From positions 496,001 through 560,000 of the forward strand of contig NZ_CP157355.1 of the NCBI RefSeq assembly GCF_040047665.1: a stretch of 64,000 nt of DNA, read 5' to 3'. Both the position numbers and the translations under genes were made by a program. Positions 57,138-64,000 of this stretch are shown in pieces. The stretch comes from Chitinibacter sp. FCG-7. Lineage in GTDB: Bacteria; Pseudomonadota; Gammaproteobacteria; Burkholderiales; Chitinibacteraceae. The notes under the pieces were generated by a model that worked only from the letters and a program-made list of their open reading frames with translations, made no database searches and had not been told where the DNA came from. How positions within the stretch are numbered: position 1 is the first letter of the stretch; each line of letters opens with the position of its first letter.

Positions 57138-57206
57138 TGCAACTTATCCATGCCATTTGCATCTCATCGCATAGAGCACACCGCAGTCATCATGGCCATT
57201 TAAAGT
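57138..57206 (+). promoter_or_regulatory. conserved promoter module, copy 1 (before outer-membrane protein gene)
   Basis: A 34-bp block (57138-57171) matches 58381-58414 at 29 of 34 positions. It contains half-sites TTATCCA and TCATCGCA about 20 bases apart, two helical turns. ATTTAAAGT (57198-57206), a possible -10, follows 26 bases later. No -35 is seen between, as expected if an activator binds the block. The remaining intergenic sequence 57043-57303 holds no gene. Confidence 0.6.
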
Positions 57207-57303
57207 GCCAGCACGGCAGATAGGCCACAGCTGCGCAAACCTTGTTGCAGTGCTTTTGTTGGACGAGCTGCCCGTTTTTTCCACCCCAAACCGGAGTCAT
57301 ACC

Positions 57304-58203
57304 ATGTTCAAATACGGCTTAATCGGCTTGCTGCTGGCGCATAGCGCAGGCAGCGCACTGGCCGGTGATCAACCTGCTGGCCTGGAGTTCAATTACTCGC
57401 TGAGCAGCATTCGCAGCGGCGAGTTTGACCTCGATTCAGGCGGGCAAGCCAAAACCCGCTGGCTGATGGGCAGCGTCGGCATTAAAATGCAGCTGGATCG
57501 CCAGAACAGCATCGGCATTGATTTTTCTGCCGCCCGCCAGCATTGGGATTTTAATAATCCTAAGGTCTGGGGCGGCAAAACGCCGTGGCAAACCATCGAG
57601 CAGGCATCAATTGGCCTGAGTTACACGCATGCCACGCAAGACGGCTGGATTTATTCGTTTGCGCCTAGCGTGGGCCTATCGGGCGAACAAGACGCCCAGC
57701 GTAGCGACAGCTATCACTACGGCACCACCGGCTTTGTCGCCAAATCAATTGCGCCAGACTTGCTGATCGGCCTGGGGCTGGGCGCTTACCGCACATTTGA
57801 CGAAACCAGCGTCTTTCCATTTGTCGTGGTCAATTGGCAAATTACGCCCACGCTACGCCTGAGCAATCCGTTTAGCGCGGGCGCTGTAGGGCCAGCGGGC
57901 GTCGAGCTAAGCTGGTCGGCCACTCCGCAGCTGGAGCTGGGCACCGGCACGACCATCCGCAGCTACAGTAGCCGTCTGGCCAAGAACAACAAGGTCGCAG
58001 CAGGGGGGGTATTGGAGCAGACGTCAATGCCACTCTTTGTTCGGGCCGGATACCGCTTTAGCCCGGCATTACGCCTTGATTCCTATATTGGCAGCGCCAT
58101 CGGCGGCGAAATGCGGATTCGTGACGAACACGGCCATGAAGTGCGCAAGGAAAAACACGACGCCATGCCATTTATAGCCGTTTCGTTCTCGGGCGAATTC
58201 TAA
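57304..58203 (+). CDS. Outer-membrane beta-barrel-like protein
   Basis: 299-aa exported protein with a signal peptide (about 1-18, ending GSALA-GD). The mature part consists of alternating beta-strand-like segments (GLEFNYSLSSI, SVGIKMQLDRQNSIGIDFSA, YSFAPSVGLSG) and ends FIAVSFSGEF with the C-terminal Phe typical of outer-membrane barrels. It resembles DUF6268-type outer-membrane proteins. It is transcribed alone in front of the ABC transporter genes and shares their upstream module, so it may be part of the same envelope system. Confidence 0.75.
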   Translation: MFKYGLIGLLLAHSAGSALAGDQPAGLEFNYSLSSIRSGEFDLDSGGQAKTRWLMGSVGIKMQLDRQNSIGIDFSAARQHWDFNNPKVWGGKTPWQTIEQASIGLSYTHATQDGWIYSFAPSVGLSGEQDAQRSDSYHYGTTGFVAKSIAPDLLIGLGLGAYRTFDETSVFPFVVVNWQITPTLRLSNPFSAGAVGPAGVELSWSATPQLELGTGTTIRSYSSRLAKNNKVAAGGVLEQTSMPLFVRAGYRFSPALRLDSYIGSAIGGEMRIRDEHGHEVRKEKHDAMPFIAVSFSGEF

Positions 58204-58211
58204 AATCCACC

Positions 58212-58242
58212 GGCGTCATGCTGCGCCCACCAGCATGACGCC
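58212..58242. terminator. hairpin after the outer-membrane protein gene
   Basis: GGCGTCATGCTG (58212-58223)/CAGCATGACGCC (58231-58242), a perfect 12-bp stem with 7-base loop, 9 bases after the stop. No T-run follows. Confidence 0.6.
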
Positions 58243-58380
58243 CTTCCCGAAGCCCTCCTTCACAGCTTGTCCTGCGCAGCCCATCCTGATTACCGCTCTG
58301 CCCTGCAACCCCTCCACACTCAATCCGTCTCCGCTCTAACTAATTTCCACAAAATGCCGTCCCCGTTGAATCCTTCTAAT

Positions 58381-58448
58381 TGCAGCTTATCCATGCCAGA
58401 TGCATTTTATCGCAGTGCCCAGCGCTGTTACGGCGAGCGATTTAAAGT
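58381..58448 (+). promoter_or_regulatory. conserved promoter module, copy 2 (before ABC transporter genes)
   Basis: The same block as at 57138-57171, here 58381-58414 with half-sites TTATCCA and TTATCGCA, then ATTTAAAGT at 58440-58448 after 25 bases. The ABC ATPase start is 29 bases further. Spacing is conserved to within one base between the copies while the sequence between them differs, which points to a functional site. The region from 58243 to 58380 shows no gene. Confidence 0.6.
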
Positions 58449-58477
58449 AAGCCTGACCAACAAGGAGGCTAGGCATC

Positions 58478-59212
58478 ATGTCTGCGCTACATATTTCACA
58501 ACTTTATAAGCATTACCAGCTCGATGCGGTGCGCGTACCGGCGCTGATCGACATCAATCTGGACATCCAGCCGCAGCGCTTTACCGTGCTGTCCGGCCCT
58601 TCGGGCAGCGGCAAAACGACGTTACTGAATCTGATCGGCTGCATCGATCAACCCGATTCGGGCGAGATCATCATCGCCGGACAAAACACCAAAACGCTTA
58701 GCGACAACGCGCTAGCTGATTTTCGTTCGCGCCATATCGGCTTTATTTTCCAGAATTTCAATCTGCTGCCGGTGCTCACCGCGTTTGAAAATGTCGAATA
58801 CCCGCTGATTCTGACCAAAATGCCCGCCGCCAAGCGCAAAGCGCGCGTTGCGCAATTGCTTGACGCAGTCGGCCTCAGCGATAAAGCGCGCAATCTACCG
58901 GGGCAGCTTTCTGGTGGACAACGCCAGCGAGTGGCCATTGCCCGCGCACTGGCCACCGAGCCGCAATGGGTGCTGGCCGACGAGCCAACGGCCAATCTCG
59001 ACAGCCAGACAGGCGCGGCGATTATCCAGCTGATGCGCCGGATGCAGCGCGAGCTGAAAGTGTCTTTTGTCTTTTCATCGCACGACCCGCAAGTGCTGGC
59101 CGCCGCCGACGATGCGGTGTTTATCCGCGACGGGCAACTGCAGCCGATGCAGGCCAAATCCGCGCTGAGCAGCGTCGACTCAAACAATAATCAGCAACAG
59201 GTGGCAGCATGA
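58478..59212 (+). CDS. ABC transporter ATPase (MacB/LolD-like)
   Basis: 244-aa ATPase with Walker A GPSGSGKTTLLNLIG, Q-loop FIFQNFNLLPVLTAFENVEY, signature LSGGQRQRVAIARAL, Walker B WVLADEPTANLDS and H-loop SSHDP. It belongs to the LolD/MacB/FtsE class that drives mechanotransmission exporters for lipoproteins, peptides or macrolides. AAGGAGG before the ATG. Its stop overlaps the start of the permease gene (ATGA), so the two form one transporter. Confidence 0.93.
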   Translation: MSALHISQLYKHYQLDAVRVPALIDINLDIQPQRFTVLSGPSGSGKTTLLNLIGCIDQPDSGEIIIAGQNTKTLSDNALADFRSRHIGFIFQNFNLLPVLTAFENVEYPLILTKMPAAKRKARVAQLLDAVGLSDKARNLPGQLSGGQRQRVAIARALATEPQWVLADEPTANLDSQTGAAIIQLMRRMQRELKVSFVFSSHDPQVLAAADDAVFIRDGQLQPMQAKSALSSVDSNNNQQQVAA

Positions 59213-60633
59213 ACACACTCTCTCTGGCCTGGCGCAATCTGCTGCGCAATCGCCGTCGCTCAATGACCACCCTGCTGGCCATGGTGATCGGGGTTGTCGC
59301 CATCCTGCTGTTTGGCGGCTATAGCGGCAATATCAATCTGGGGCTACAAACCGGCTTTGTTCGCGACAGCGGCCATTTGCAGATTCAGCGCCAGGATTAC
59401 TTCCTCTATGGCACCGGCAATCCGGCAGCATATGGCATTCGTGATTACCAGCGCGTGATTGCAGTGATCAAGGACGACCCGGTGCTCGCACCAATGCTCA
59501 CCGTGGTCACACCGACGCTCAGTCTGGGCGGCATCGCTGGGAATTTCTCGGCCGGCGTATCGCGTACCGTGGTGGGCAACGGCATTGTGGTCGACGAACA
59601 AAACCAGCTGCGCTTATGGAATGACTATCAGTTTCCCGATGAGGCGCGCCCTTCGCCGCTGAGCAATACCGCGCAAAACGCAGCCAGCATTGGCGTTGGC
59701 GTGGCTCGCGTCTTGCAGCTGTGCGCAGCCTTGAAAGTCAGCGATTGCCCGCAGGCCAAAGCGCCGCCGAGCACGACTACTGCTGCCGCTGATGCCGCCG
59801 CTGATGCCGCATCTGCGCCGGATGACATCAGCGCCCTGTCCGAGCTGGAAGCTGCGCCCAAATCATCAGGCCCCGCCGAAGCGGGAGCCCGTATCGAATT
59901 GCTCGCCGCCAATACCCACGGCGCGCCCAATGTGGCCGCGCTGCAAGTGGTCAAAGCCGAGCTGCTGGGCGTCAAGGAGCTGGACGATATGTCGATCACG
60001 CTGCACCTGAAGCAAGCGCAGCAGCTGATCTACGGCAATGACGCGCCGCAGGTAACGGCGATCGTGCTGCAGCTCAAACACACCGAGCAGATCGCTGCCG
60101 CGCAGGCACGGCTTAATCAGCTATTGCAGACTGAATTCAAATCGCTCTCGCTTGAAGTACACGACTACGCCACCCTCAACCCGAGCTACGGCCAGATTAC
60201 CGGCATGTTTGCCGCCATTTTCAGCTTTATTACGCTGCTGATCGGCGCAATTGTGCTGTTTACCGTCGGCAATACGATGAGCATGGCGGTGGTCGAGCGC
60301 ACGGTTGAAATCGGCACCCTGCGGGCCATTGGCCTGCGCCGAGGCGGGATTCGCCGACTGTTTGTCTGCGAAGGCGTACTGCTGGGGCTGGTGGGTGCGG
60401 GTCTGGGCGTGCTGATGGCGCTGCTGTTTGCCTACATCATCAATCACAGCGGGCTAAGCTGGATGCCACCGGGCAATACCGATCCGGTTGCACTCACCGT
60501 CCGGGTCTGGGGCGAGCCCAATATGATTCTGGGTACCGCCATCGGCCTGCTCTTGGTGGCCGCAATCTCGGCCTGGTGGCCAGCCCGCCGCGCAGCACAA
60601 CTCAATATCGTCGATGCCTTGCGCCATGTTTAA
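59209..60633 (+). CDS. FtsX/MacB-like ABC transporter permease
   Basis: 474-aa permease with the type VII layout: N-terminal helix (about 18-40; LLRNRRRSMTTLLAMVIG), a large periplasmic domain (about 45-330), and three C-terminal helices (about 335-365, 385-415, 440-460) with VVERTVEIGTLRAIGLRRG. The periplasmic part contains an Ala/Pro/Thr-rich insertion (about 185-225) preceded by two Cys (QLCAALKVSDCPQ). With one permease gene it would act as a homodimer. Substrate unknown; neighbours point to lipoproteins or envelope lipids. Confidence 0.9.
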   Translation: MNTLSLAWRNLLRNRRRSMTTLLAMVIGVVAILLFGGYSGNINLGLQTGFVRDSGHLQIQRQDYFLYGTGNPAAYGIRDYQRVIAVIKDDPVLAPMLTVVTPTLSLGGIAGNFSAGVSRTVVGNGIVVDEQNQLRLWNDYQFPDEARPSPLSNTAQNAASIGVGVARVLQLCAALKVSDCPQAKAPPSTTTAAADAAADAASAPDDISALSELEAAPKSSGPAEAGARIELLAANTHGAPNVAALQVVKAELLGVKELDDMSITLHLKQAQQLIYGNDAPQVTAIVLQLKHTEQIAAAQARLNQLLQTEFKSLSLEVHDYATLNPSYGQITGMFAAIFSFITLLIGAIVLFTVGNTMSMAVVERTVEIGTLRAIGLRRGGIRRLFVCEGVLLGLVGAGLGVLMALLFAYIINHSGLSWMPPGNTDPVALTVRVWGEPNMILGTAIGLLLVAAISAWWPARRAAQLNIVDALRHV

Positions 60634-60646
60634 CGATTAAAGCTAA

Positions 60647-60695
60647 GGGTATTGCCATGAAAGCCAACATAGAAAATAGCTACATGGCAATACCC
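60647..60695. repeat. GGGTAT-bounded inverted repeat, copy 5
   Basis: GGGTATTGCCATG (60647-60659) and CATGGCAATACCC (60683-60695) form a perfect 13-bp inverted repeat with a 23-base AT-rich interior, 13 bases after the permease stop. Longest uninterrupted outer stem of the family in this window. Confidence 0.8.
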
Positions 60696-60737
60696 ATAAC
60701 AATAAGGTTATGTTCTCAATGTGTGCTGATCGTTTTT

Positions 60738-60930
60738 AGCGCCTTCGGCGCGGTGTTTTGCAGTCGCAATCCGCGACGGGGACTCACTTTCTTTGCTTCG
60801 CCAAAGAAAGTAAGCCAAGAAAGGCGACCCCCGCCTGCGGCCCTCCGGGCTACCCTCGGTCGGTCGCGAGCCAAACGGTAAAACTGTTTGTCTCACTCCA
60901 CTCCCTCGGCGAGGGGCGACAGGGGATTTT
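60738..60930. repeat. TTTCTTTG...CAAAGAAA complex intergenic repeat
   Basis: A GC-rich, structured stretch in the 403-bp gap between permease and next gene: GCGCC-ttc-GGCGC (60738-60750), GTCGC/GCGAC, ACTTTCTTTG (60785-60794) with CAAAGAAAGT (60801-60810), then clustered C/G-rich segments. Very similar text is common between genes in many proteobacteria and gives rise to spurious short protein calls. I see no gene in 60634-61036. Confidence 0.6.
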
Positions 60931-61036
60931 AAGCTCCAGATCCACCAGCGAGGTTGGAATCAACTCGTACTGAGAACAGCAGCAATAATTACTTACTGGC
61001 ATTTCATTTCAATAAGCCACTCAAGGAGAATTTATC

Positions 61037-61231
61037 ATGCGTCACTCCATCATCCTCTTGCTGATCGGTGCGGTATTTCTGGGTGTGAATCTGGGCTGGT
61101 GGCCCGGTGTGATGAATCTGCTGGCCACCTGGTGGCCGCTGATTCTGATTGCCGTGGGCATCTCTGGCTTGATCCGCCATAAAGAAAACCGCACCTGCCG
61201 CCATCCTCACCATCAAGGAGAGCAGCAATGA
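61037..61231 (+). CDS. Small membrane protein with LiaI/LiaF-like helices
   Basis: 64 aa with two hydrophobic helices (about 4-18 and 22-45) containing GVNLGWWPGVMNLLATWWPL, typical of the DUF5668/LiaI-LiaF transmembrane region associated with envelope-stress sensing. A His/basic tail follows (HPHHQGEQQ). AAGGAG precedes the ATG and its stop overlaps the next start (ATGA), so it is translationally coupled to the lipoprotein-sorting-like gene. This supports its being a real gene in spite of its size. Confidence 0.75.
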   Translation: MRHSIILLLIGAVFLGVNLGWWPGVMNLLATWWPLILIAVGISGLIRHKENRTCRHPHHQGEQQ

Positions 61232-62031
61232 CCGCCCGCTCGTTCACCATGAAGCGTCAGGCGCTGGCCTTGCTGCTGGCGGCGGTAATGCAAAACAGTC
61301 TGGCTGCGCCCACAACCACCGCGCAAGACTTGCTCGCCGCCAGCGACGCGATCCGCAATCCTGATCGCTCTTTTGGCCTAAACAATACACTGATCGAATA
61401 CCGCGACGGCAAGCAGATCGATAGCTCGACGCTGGCCATCTATGCGCGTGCCGATAGCAAAACCGGGCAGTTTCGCAACCTGATTCGCTTTGTCTCGCCG
61501 CAGCGCGACGCAGGCAAATTGCTGCTGAAAAATGGCAATGATTTGTGGTTTTTTGACCCCAGCAGCAAGGCCAGCGTGCGTATTTCGCCGCAGCAGCGCC
61601 TGCTGGGGCAAGCCGCCAACGGCGACGTAATGACGGTGAATCTGGCGCTGGATTACCACGCCAGCCTGCTGGCCGAAGAAGACGTGCAGGATGGCGAGCG
61701 CCAGAAGCGCGCTAGCTATCTGCTCAATCTGAAGGCCAAACATGGTGAAGTCACTTACGAGCGTATCGAATACTGGATAGACCGCAGCAATAGCCGCCCG
61801 ATCAAGGCCAAATTTTACTCCAGCAGCGATCGCCTGCTGAAAACCGCTTACTATCGGCAATTCAAATCGCAGCTGGGCGTCGAGCGCCCGACCGAAACGG
61901 TGATCATCGACGGGCTGGACCCGAAATGGATTACCGTCATGCGCACCAGCGATCTGGCTTATCGCGATGTGCCCGAGAGCTGGCTGCAGCGCGACTATCT
62001 GCCCCGCTTTAACCCGGAACAGGCCAAATGA
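61228..62031 (+). CDS. LolA-like 'outer membrane lipoprotein-sorting' protein
   Basis: 267-aa periplasmic protein with a signal peptide (cleavage near SLA-APT, about residue 27). The mature domain is the LolA/LolB-like half-barrel of the lipoprotein-sorting family related to Treponema TP0789: LLAASDAIRNPDRSFG, GKLLLKNGNDLWFFDPSSK, YWIDRSNSRPIKAKFYSSSD. Such proteins carry lipids or lipidated cargo and are often encoded with MacB-like or RND-like exporters. AAGGAG is 7 bases before ATG 61228; ATG 61249 is an alternative. Overlaps genes on both sides by four bases. Confidence 0.85.
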   Translation: MTARSFTMKRQALALLLAAVMQNSLAAPTTTAQDLLAASDAIRNPDRSFGLNNTLIEYRDGKQIDSSTLAIYARADSKTGQFRNLIRFVSPQRDAGKLLLKNGNDLWFFDPSSKASVRISPQQRLLGQAANGDVMTVNLALDYHASLLAEEDVQDGERQKRASYLLNLKAKHGEVTYERIEYWIDRSNSRPIKAKFYSSSDRLLKTAYYRQFKSQLGVERPTETVIIDGLDPKWITVMRTSDLAYRDVPESWLQRDYLPRFNPEQAK

Positions 62032-63368
62032 CAGCCGCCGCGCCCCGCTCGCCTAGCGTCACCCAACTGGGAACTCGGCTGGGAACGGGTCTAGCCATGC
62101 TCGCCGCGCTGCTGAGCCCGGCCGCCGCGCAGGCCGACGATCTGGATGCCTTGTCGCTGGCCGACCAGACGCCGCAGACCGAAGTTGAGCAGCAGTCATG
62201 GCAGTTTTTCACCGAGGGTATGCTCGGCTACATCAATCGCAAAGAAGGCCAGAGCGATATACACCCAAGCCGTATCTCGCTTGATCTAAGCGTGGATTAT
62301 CGTTTCAATGCGCAATGGCGCGGCGTGCTGGCCAACCGTCTTGATCTGAACCGGGTTGATCTGAAAGATGGGCAAGGCAGCCAGCACGAGCAGATCAATA
62401 CGCTGAAAGAAGCCTATCTCAGCTGGCAAATCCAGCCCGACTGGCTGCTGGACGCCGGGCGCATCAATCAGCGCAATGGCATGGCTTACGCCTATAACCC
62501 CAGCGATTTTTTCAAAGCGGGCGCGCTGCGCTCGGTGGTGTCGATCGCCCCGGCCAGCTTGCGGGAAAATCGCCTGGGCAGCGCCATGCTGCGTACCCAG
62601 TATTTATGGGAAGGTGGCTCGCTCAGCGCCCTGTACGCGCCGCGTGTTGGCGATGGTATTGGCGATGGCACTAGCAATATTGCCCAAGGCGCAGATAGCG
62701 GCAGCTTTGCTCTTGATTTGGCCTCGAGCAACCCAGCAGACCGCTGGCAACTGGCGTGGAGCCAGCGCTGGTTTGACGGTTTTTCGCCGCAATTGATTCT
62801 GTTTAAAGAAGCGGGCAGCGCGCCCCGACTGGGGCTCAATGCCAGCTGGCTGGCCAGCGATGCGCTGAGCCTGTATGCCGAATACAGTGGCGCACGCAGC
62901 CGCAGCCTCGCACAAAAAGCCCGGCAGATTGGCGGCGACGAGCGCTTTTACTCTCGCCTCTCCAGCGGCGCGACTTACACTTTCCCAGTCAATCTAAGCC
63001 TGACGCTGGAATATCAGTACAATCAAGCCGCGCTGGATAAAACGGGCTGGCAGGCGCTAGGTCAGCAAGGTGCGGCTTACGGGCGCTATCGCTCGCTAGC
63101 GACGCGCGAGCAGGATAATCCCACGCGGCACAATCTGTTTATGCTGGCGAGCTGGAATAATGCGCTGATGCGCAATCTGGATTTAAGCCTGATGCTGCGC
63201 CGGGATCTGGTCGATCACAGCACGCTGCACTGGCTGGAAGCGCGCTACCATTTCAAATGCGCCGATCTGGCGCTGCAATGGCAATCGCAACAGGGCAGCG
63301 CCATCAGCCAGTACGGCGCGGCTGCCGAGCGCAACAGCGTACAGGCGCTGATCAAATACTATTTTTAG
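62028..63368 (+). CDS. Outer-membrane beta-barrel protein of the export cluster
   Basis: 446 aa. Signal peptide about 1-36 (ending AAAQA-DD). The mature part is rich in amphipathic strands (SLDLSVDYRFNAQWRGVLAN, INQRNGMAYAYNPSDFF) and ends LIKYYF with C-terminal Phe, as in outer-membrane barrels. It resembles DUF1302/alginate-export-like porins. Coupled to the LolA-like gene by ATGA. Together with the ABC transporter and LolA-like protein it would complete an inner membrane-periplasm-outer membrane route. Confidence 0.8.
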   Translation: MTAAAPRSPSVTQLGTRLGTGLAMLAALLSPAAAQADDLDALSLADQTPQTEVEQQSWQFFTEGMLGYINRKEGQSDIHPSRISLDLSVDYRFNAQWRGVLANRLDLNRVDLKDGQGSQHEQINTLKEAYLSWQIQPDWLLDAGRINQRNGMAYAYNPSDFFKAGALRSVVSIAPASLRENRLGSAMLRTQYLWEGGSLSALYAPRVGDGIGDGTSNIAQGADSGSFALDLASSNPADRWQLAWSQRWFDGFSPQLILFKEAGSAPRLGLNASWLASDALSLYAEYSGARSRSLAQKARQIGGDERFYSRLSSGATYTFPVNLSLTLEYQYNQAALDKTGWQALGQQGAAYGRYRSLATREQDNPTRHNLFMLASWNNALMRNLDLSLMLRRDLVDHSTLHWLEARYHFKCADLALQWQSQQGSAISQYGAAAERNSVQALIKYYF

Positions 63369-63377
63369 GGCTGCAGC

Positions 63378-64000
63378 ATGGCACTTTTTTTCTCGACCAA
63401 GCAGTTTCCCAATTTCAACTGGCAACGCGAAATCGGCCTCTTGTTACTGGTCAATACGATTATTGCTGTTGCGCTCAGTGTAATTGAAGGCGCAACCAGC
63501 TTTGGCCAGAACCTGCTGATTTCGCACTGCATTGGTTTTAGCATCGGCAGCACCAACTGTCTGCTTCACCTGGGCGTGCCCAGCATAGGCTGGAACTGGC
63601 GCTCGATCATGTCGGTGATTCTGGGCGTGCCGCTTGGCTTTACGGTGGCGCACTGGCTAGGCGCGCCCAATGTTTTTACCATGATGCAGCAAAACCCGGA
63701 TCATCAATGGCGCGGGTTTGCCTTTGCGATGATTGTCTCGTTTGTCGCCTGCGCATTTTTTATCGTTTTTTACCGTGCGCTCACCTACAAGCACGAGCTG
63801 GAAAAAGCCAAGCGCCAGCACGCCGAAGCCAGACAAGCCGAAATCAGCGCACAGCTGGCCATGCTGCAAGCACAGATCGAGCCGCATTTTCTGTTTAATA
63901 CGCTGGCCAATGTGCACAGCCTGATTACGCGCGATGCGCCGCTGGCGCAAACCATGCTCGAACACTTGAACGATTACCTGCGCGCCAGCCTGTCGCGCAC
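63378..64000 (+). CDS. LytS-family sensor histidine kinase (partial, cut by window end)
   Basis: 207 residues visible, open at the right edge. About four N-terminal hydrophobic helices, then a coiled coil (HELEKAKRQHAEARQAEISA) and the His_kinase motif MLQAQIEPHFLFNTLANVHS with the phospho-acceptor His, diagnostic of the LytS/YehU class. It starts 10 bases after the barrel gene in the same operon. Kinases of this class pair with LytTR response regulators encoded next to them, so one is expected just beyond 64000. Confidence 0.88.
   Translation, partial: MALFFSTKQFPNFNWQREIGLLLLVNTIIAVALSVIEGATSFGQNLLISHCIGFSIGSTNCLLHLGVPSIGWNWRSIMSVILGVPLGFTVAHWLGAPNVFTMMQQNPDHQWRGFAFAMIVSFVACAFFIVFYRALTYKHELEKAKRQHAEARQAEISAQLAMLQAQIEPHFLFNTLANVHSLITRDAPLAQTMLEHLNDYLRASLSR

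Follow-up and report, generated by a model that had tools for sequence, protein, structure and literature searches.

The window analyzed in this study is a stretch of 64,000 nucleotides, bases 496001-560000 of the complete 3.58-Mb genome of Chitinibacter sp. FCG-7. Near its 3' end lies a cassette of plus-strand genes. These encode an ABC ATPase of the LolD/MacB class (58478..59212), a Type VII permease with a predicted FtsX/LolCE fold (59209..60633), a 64-aa two-helix LiaF-TM-like membrane protein (61037..61231), a LolA_like periplasmic carrier, probably with a signal peptide (61228..62031), an 18-strand outer-membrane barrel predicted to be OprD/Occ/AlgE-like (62028..63368), and a LytS-type histidine kinase (63378..64000 within the window). 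A gene for a DUF6268 outer-membrane protein precedes the cassette on the same strand (57304..58203). When 20 kb around the window end was fetched, the kinase was completed at window-equivalent position 64496, and a gene for its cognate LytTR response regulator was gained past the window (window-equivalent 64585-65355, L002:9585-10355). By the cassette locus, the nearest named relative is Chitinibacter sp. GC72, whose carrier is 99% identical.

The earlier note on this DNA had described seven consecutive plus-strand genes. All seven ORFs exist, and their guessed families were sharpened to DUF6268 (PF19783, 2.6e-9), ABC ATPase, FtsX permease, LiaF-TM/LiaI-LiaF-like_TM1 (PF22570, PF18917), PF17131 LolA_like (7.7e-37), an unclassified barrel, and His_kinase. 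They do not form one tight run, with 403 bases separating the permease gene from the small gene. The 4-base overlaps of ATPase with permease, small gene with LolA-like gene, and LolA-like gene with barrel are all present; the second of them depends on the choice of start, because another ATG lies 21 bases inside the LolA-like ORF. About 270 bases of the 403-base gap belong to a dispersed repeat (c. 60710..60978), which is no part of the system; 46 matches to it, this copy among them, occur in the genome, many of them partial. In Chitinibacter sp. GC72, the corresponding gap is shorter by about 290 bases. A further copy of the repeat stands directly behind the LytTR gene (genome 561416-561688). 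The DUF6268 gene lies 274 bases upstream of the ATPase gene, beyond a 12-bp inverted repeat (58212..58242). The T-rich tail of this repeat is on the minus strand only and is therefore a weak sign of a terminator for the plus strand. The DUF6268 ORF is open from 57205, and its start is probably the ATG at 57304, ahead of a signal-peptide-like stretch. A sigma-70 promoter scan at the locus gave 4 sites against 3.8 expected.

Relatives were collected as matches to the window carrier, giving 77 betaproteobacterial loci that include contig-end cuts and MAGs, and genes were counted there from plus-strand matches only. The four core genes (ATPase, permease, LolA_like carrier and barrel) occurred together in 60 of the 77 loci. 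In 51 of 62 loci, the ATPase and permease genes shared exactly 4 bases, and carrier and barrel were no more than 100 bases apart in 69 of 73. In the window's family, the carrier was present in 33 of 43 genomes. Among 20 family loci fetched, the ATPase, permease and carrier were each found in 19, the barrel in 17, and the kinase and LytTR regulator, placed behind the barrel, in 16; the family and betaproteobacterial sets are not independent, because L188, L190, L196, L199 and L204 are among the genomes common to both. The phylum-wide sample held the cassette in at least 21 of 398 genomes, a lower bound with at most six candidates scored per genome. Twenty distant regions were drawn from the 22 places in this sample outside the window's own. 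The ATPase, permease and carrier were found in 19 of them, the kinase and regulator also in 10, and a barrel-profile match in 10. In five of 26 plasmid records, those examined, the gene order was always ATPase, permease, carrier and "hypothetical protein"; three of these cassettes were in biosynthetic clusters, one of them in P. ginsengisoli, the same species as betaproteobacterial locus L052, and two were beside a kinase pair. The conservation of the core is far beyond chance. The gene order proposed in the earlier note is conserved among proteobacteria as an ABC-LolA_like-barrel core. Two further members, the DUF6268 protein (2/77 betaproteobacterial and 3/20 family loci) and the 64-aa LiaF-like protein (3/77 and 8/20), were rejected as core parts and are local additions.

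Some loci depart from this arrangement. Seven betaproteobacterial loci (L029, L030, L032, L036, L037, L039 and L067) have a carrier and barrel with no permease match on the locus DNA; in three of them an ATPase gene still adjoins that of the carrier. Such loci may have their engine encoded elsewhere. In L159 and L202, the ATPase gene is divergent, on the strand opposite the carrier, and the region has no permease match.

The ATPase and the FtsX-fold permease with its periplasmic domain together constitute a Type VII ABC (MacB/LolCE/FtsX) transporter. MacAB-TolC uses an engine of the same type, but in MacB the ATPase is fused to the permease, whereas the cassette has two ORFs with a 4-base overlap. 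HlyD/MFP and OEP domains were absent from the eight cassette proteins scanned. Membership in MacAB-TolC was therefore rejected on the unfused genes and the lack of a MacA-type adaptor or TolC-type channel in the cassette; the earlier note had set the two apart by the missing MacA. A separate OEP protein with a Cds6_C domain is encoded further downstream (L002:15682-17514), in a stretch 3' of the cassette (L002:11460-17514) that also encodes a LysM/FecR protein and a 791-aa protein. In the permease, C172 and C180 are invariant and precede a variable, low-confidence insert of about 45-50 residues within its periplasmic domain.

The cassette shares its permease fold, ATPase class and LolA-fold carrier with the Lol pathway. 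The predicted permease fold is closest to LolE/LolC, and over 214 columns its sequence is 28% identical to the LolC/E of this genome. However, both proteins missed the equivalog cut-offs for LolCE and LolD (permease 70.7 bits against 362.45; ATPase 213.9 against 307.75 for TIGR02211). The Lol carrier belongs to PF03548, whereas that family was absent from the matches of the cassette carrier at E <= 1 and PF17131 was matched instead; the nearest solved structure of the carrier is 3buu. Lol has LolB where the cassette has a barrel. A separate Lol set is present in the genome, with LolB, one LolC/E-type gene, and a LolA encoded elsewhere that is the genome's one PF03548 match. Membership in Lol was rejected on the scores, the carrier family and this separate set. 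The earlier note had also set the cassette apart from Lol by its single permease. That part failed, since the Lol set of this genome likewise includes one LolC/E-type gene, and LolDF systems are described in PMC5985334.

An additional Lol-type pathway reserved for a few special lipoproteins would agree with the fold and identity of the permease and with PF17131 being named after lipoprotein sorting. We consider such a dedicated branch improbable, as the genome already has LolA, LolB and LolC/E-type genes, the cassette has an 18-strand barrel and no LolB-like part, its ATPase and permease score well below LolD and LolCE, and PF17131 relatives go together with RND lipid pumps. The carrier as a lipoprotein sorter was rejected as resting on the family name alone.

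PF17131 is common in the class (170/274 genomes). An MMPL-type RND match was found in 19 of 20 PF17131 regions, several with a barrel gene; these regions were chosen among the top-scoring PF17131 matches listed, a choice that favours RND types. Carrier and barrel genes stand side by side in the cassette, as in RND-LolA-barrel exporters, but its engine is ABC and not RND (MMPL/HAE3). The closest systems in build are these RND (HAE3)-LolA-barrel exporters. One of them, AmeABCD of Castellaniella defragrans, combines an RND HAE3 pump, a DUF1329 LolA-superfamily protein and a DUF1302 barrel and gives tolerance to monoterpenes, according to PMC6394551. AmeABCD-type exporters and the cassette both place an inner-membrane engine, a LolA-superfamily periplasmic protein and a barrel in one operon with no TolC, and their hydrophobic cargo is of the kind that we propose for the cassette. 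They differ in engine (RND against an ATPase with a Type VII permease), in carrier (DUF1329 against PF17131) and in barrel, which in the cassette is not DUF1302; the cassette also has no AmeC-like protein and has its own kinase and regulator. The barrel profile gave no meaningful match in the PDB or family databases. The cassette had been called undescribed, and we found no description of it in the open-access literature searched, which leaves that word unproven; its kind is known, as exporters of the same build with an RND (HAE3) engine are published (PMC6394551) and PF17131 proteins are common neighbours of MMPL RND pumps.

House-keeping traffic of phospholipids or hopanoid-like lipids from one membrane to the other, involving no secondary product, could in principle be served by a LolA fold, a Type VII engine and a barrel, and the hopanoid transporter HpnN is one of the HAE3 pumps (PMC6394551). 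The spread of the cassette is patchy, 33 of 43 genomes in the family against at least 21 of 398 sampled across the phylum. It also has its own two-component control and occurs on plasmids. All three features speak against this explanation, which we regard as very unlikely.

The neighbours of relatives' cassettes gave clues to the cargo. Thirteen of the 77 betaproteobacterial loci, every one from Burkholderia or Paraburkholderia, have the cassette surrounded by P450-KR, PKS dehydratase-type, FMO, DUF4345 and lipase-like genes, and 4 of the 13 also gave a phosphopantetheinyl transferase match. An E. coli plasmid carries the cassette within a cluster that also has ACP, FabA-like, ketosynthase, SDR, FeeM (N-acyl amino acid synthase) and crotonase genes. 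The Aliiroseovarius cassette has ketosynthase, acyl-CoA dehydrogenase and AMP-binding genes close by. In L172 and L069, genes for a PKS and a BioF/serine-palmitoyltransferase-type (oxoamine) synthase adjoin the ABC cassette. In L133, a homologous pair overlaps a HAE3 RND gene with a PF17131 carrier and a barrel. The synthases of L133 and L172 are 39% identical over 450 aa, and those of L069 and L172 are 78% identical over 364. L189 holds a second cassette, which is flanked by NRPS-type and oxoamine-synthase genes, and L191 has a synthase match too. Enzymes of these kinds make acyl-chain products. The barrels of the RND-type L133 and the ABC-type L172 are not clearly homologous by sequence (E = 0.016). 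The homologous PKS and oxoamine-synthase genes beside ABC in two loci and beside RND in a third suggest interchangeable engines on one export path.

No ketosynthase-type (KS/PKS) match was found in the 20 loci of the window's family, and the biosynthetic link therefore stops short of the window's own lineage. In the phylum sample, the KS/PKS rate differed little between ABC regions (2/20) and RND regions (1/20). Matches in L028, L058, L069, L074 and L172 arise partly because the query genes came from those loci.

We also examined the kinase and the regulator. A PF06580 kinase with an adjacent LytTR regulator forms a LytS/LytTR two-component system. The sensor had been assigned to the LytS family, which holds for the catalytic part; the full kinase matched only His_kinase and HATPase_c at E <= 0.01, with no 5TM-LYT sensor domain. 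A crude scan showed three hydrophobic segments joined by short loops. Two PF06580 kinases are encoded in the genome. The kinase and regulator of all 12 distant cassettes compared scored higher against the window pair than against the genome's other pair, and those of three further betaproteobacterial cassettes did so as well. The 12 distant kinases aligned over 301-401 residues with the window kinase and over 177-201 with the other kinase. These results indicate that the link of the pair to the cassette is old or that the cassette moved as a unit, and the claim that the cassette has its own sensor, a cognate pair and no chance neighbour, was borne out. A histidine kinase and a LytTR protein are also beside the cassette in Vibrio and Plesiomonas. 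A kinase lies less than 1 kb behind the barrel in just 11 of the 77 betaproteobacterial loci, and many relatives are therefore without one at that place.

In the BceAB-RS and LiaFSR modules of Firmicutes, an FtsX-type transporter has a linked kinase and regulator. The cassette resembles them in these parts and in the LiaF-TM-like small protein, but differs in its PF06580 kinase, its LytTR regulator, and the added periplasmic carrier and outer-membrane barrel. By analogy with BceAB-type modules, the cassette might expel a membrane-active compound from outside, such as an antimicrobial amphiphile, with an intramembrane-type kinase sensing the compound or the transporter activity. Lineages in which the cassette stands alone with a kinase, and the family loci free of KS/PKS matches, agree with such defence, as do the few hydrophobic segments and short loops of a kinase in which no sensor domain was found, and the LiaF-TM-like protein in the operon here. 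However, relatives are embedded in biosynthetic clusters, the LiaF-like protein is lineage-specific, and neither a compound nor a resistance gene nor a phenotype is known for the cassette here. We regard defence efflux as a rather unlikely explanation.

We propose, with about an even chance of being right, that the core is an envelope export pathway for an acyl-chain hydrophobic or amphiphilic molecule, switched on in the window's lineage by the LytS/LytTR pair. This proposal draws on the gene content and order, the old regulator link, the biosynthetic context of relatives and the module common with the RND version; its folds are predicted. The Lol-like engine of ATPase and permease, perhaps a homodimer of the latter, would use ATP to drive an acyl-chain-bearing amphiphile outward. 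The LolA-fold carrier would form the periplasmic part and the channel barrel the outer-membrane part of the path, with the cargo handed over from one to the next. The kinase and regulator of the same cassette would turn the exporter on in response to a signal. Such control in the window's lineage suggests either that the product is made only under certain conditions or that an amphiphile from outside has to be cleared. More tentatively, the LolA-carrier/barrel path for long-chain amphiphiles may come in two versions, powered by RND or by ABC, that can replace each other. Here, the ABC version would be run by an intramembrane-sensing LytS/LytTR pair reading cargo or transport flux, and the same machine would export products in biosynthetic clusters and clear amphiphiles elsewhere.

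The passage of lipids and lipid-like products across the Gram-negative envelope is an open question on which the cassette bears. With a conserved ABC LolA-barrel route that has relatives among polyketide and fatty-acid genes, and an RND twin beside a homologous biosynthetic module, the idea of a modular exporter of carrier plus barrel with any engine becomes directly testable. The cassette also offers a way to find the cargo of a widespread family that owes its name solely to a resemblance to lipoprotein sorting. Another type of two-component system occurs on the Aliiroseovarius plasmid (L178), where genes for a response regulator and a HAMP sensor kinase come after the cassette.
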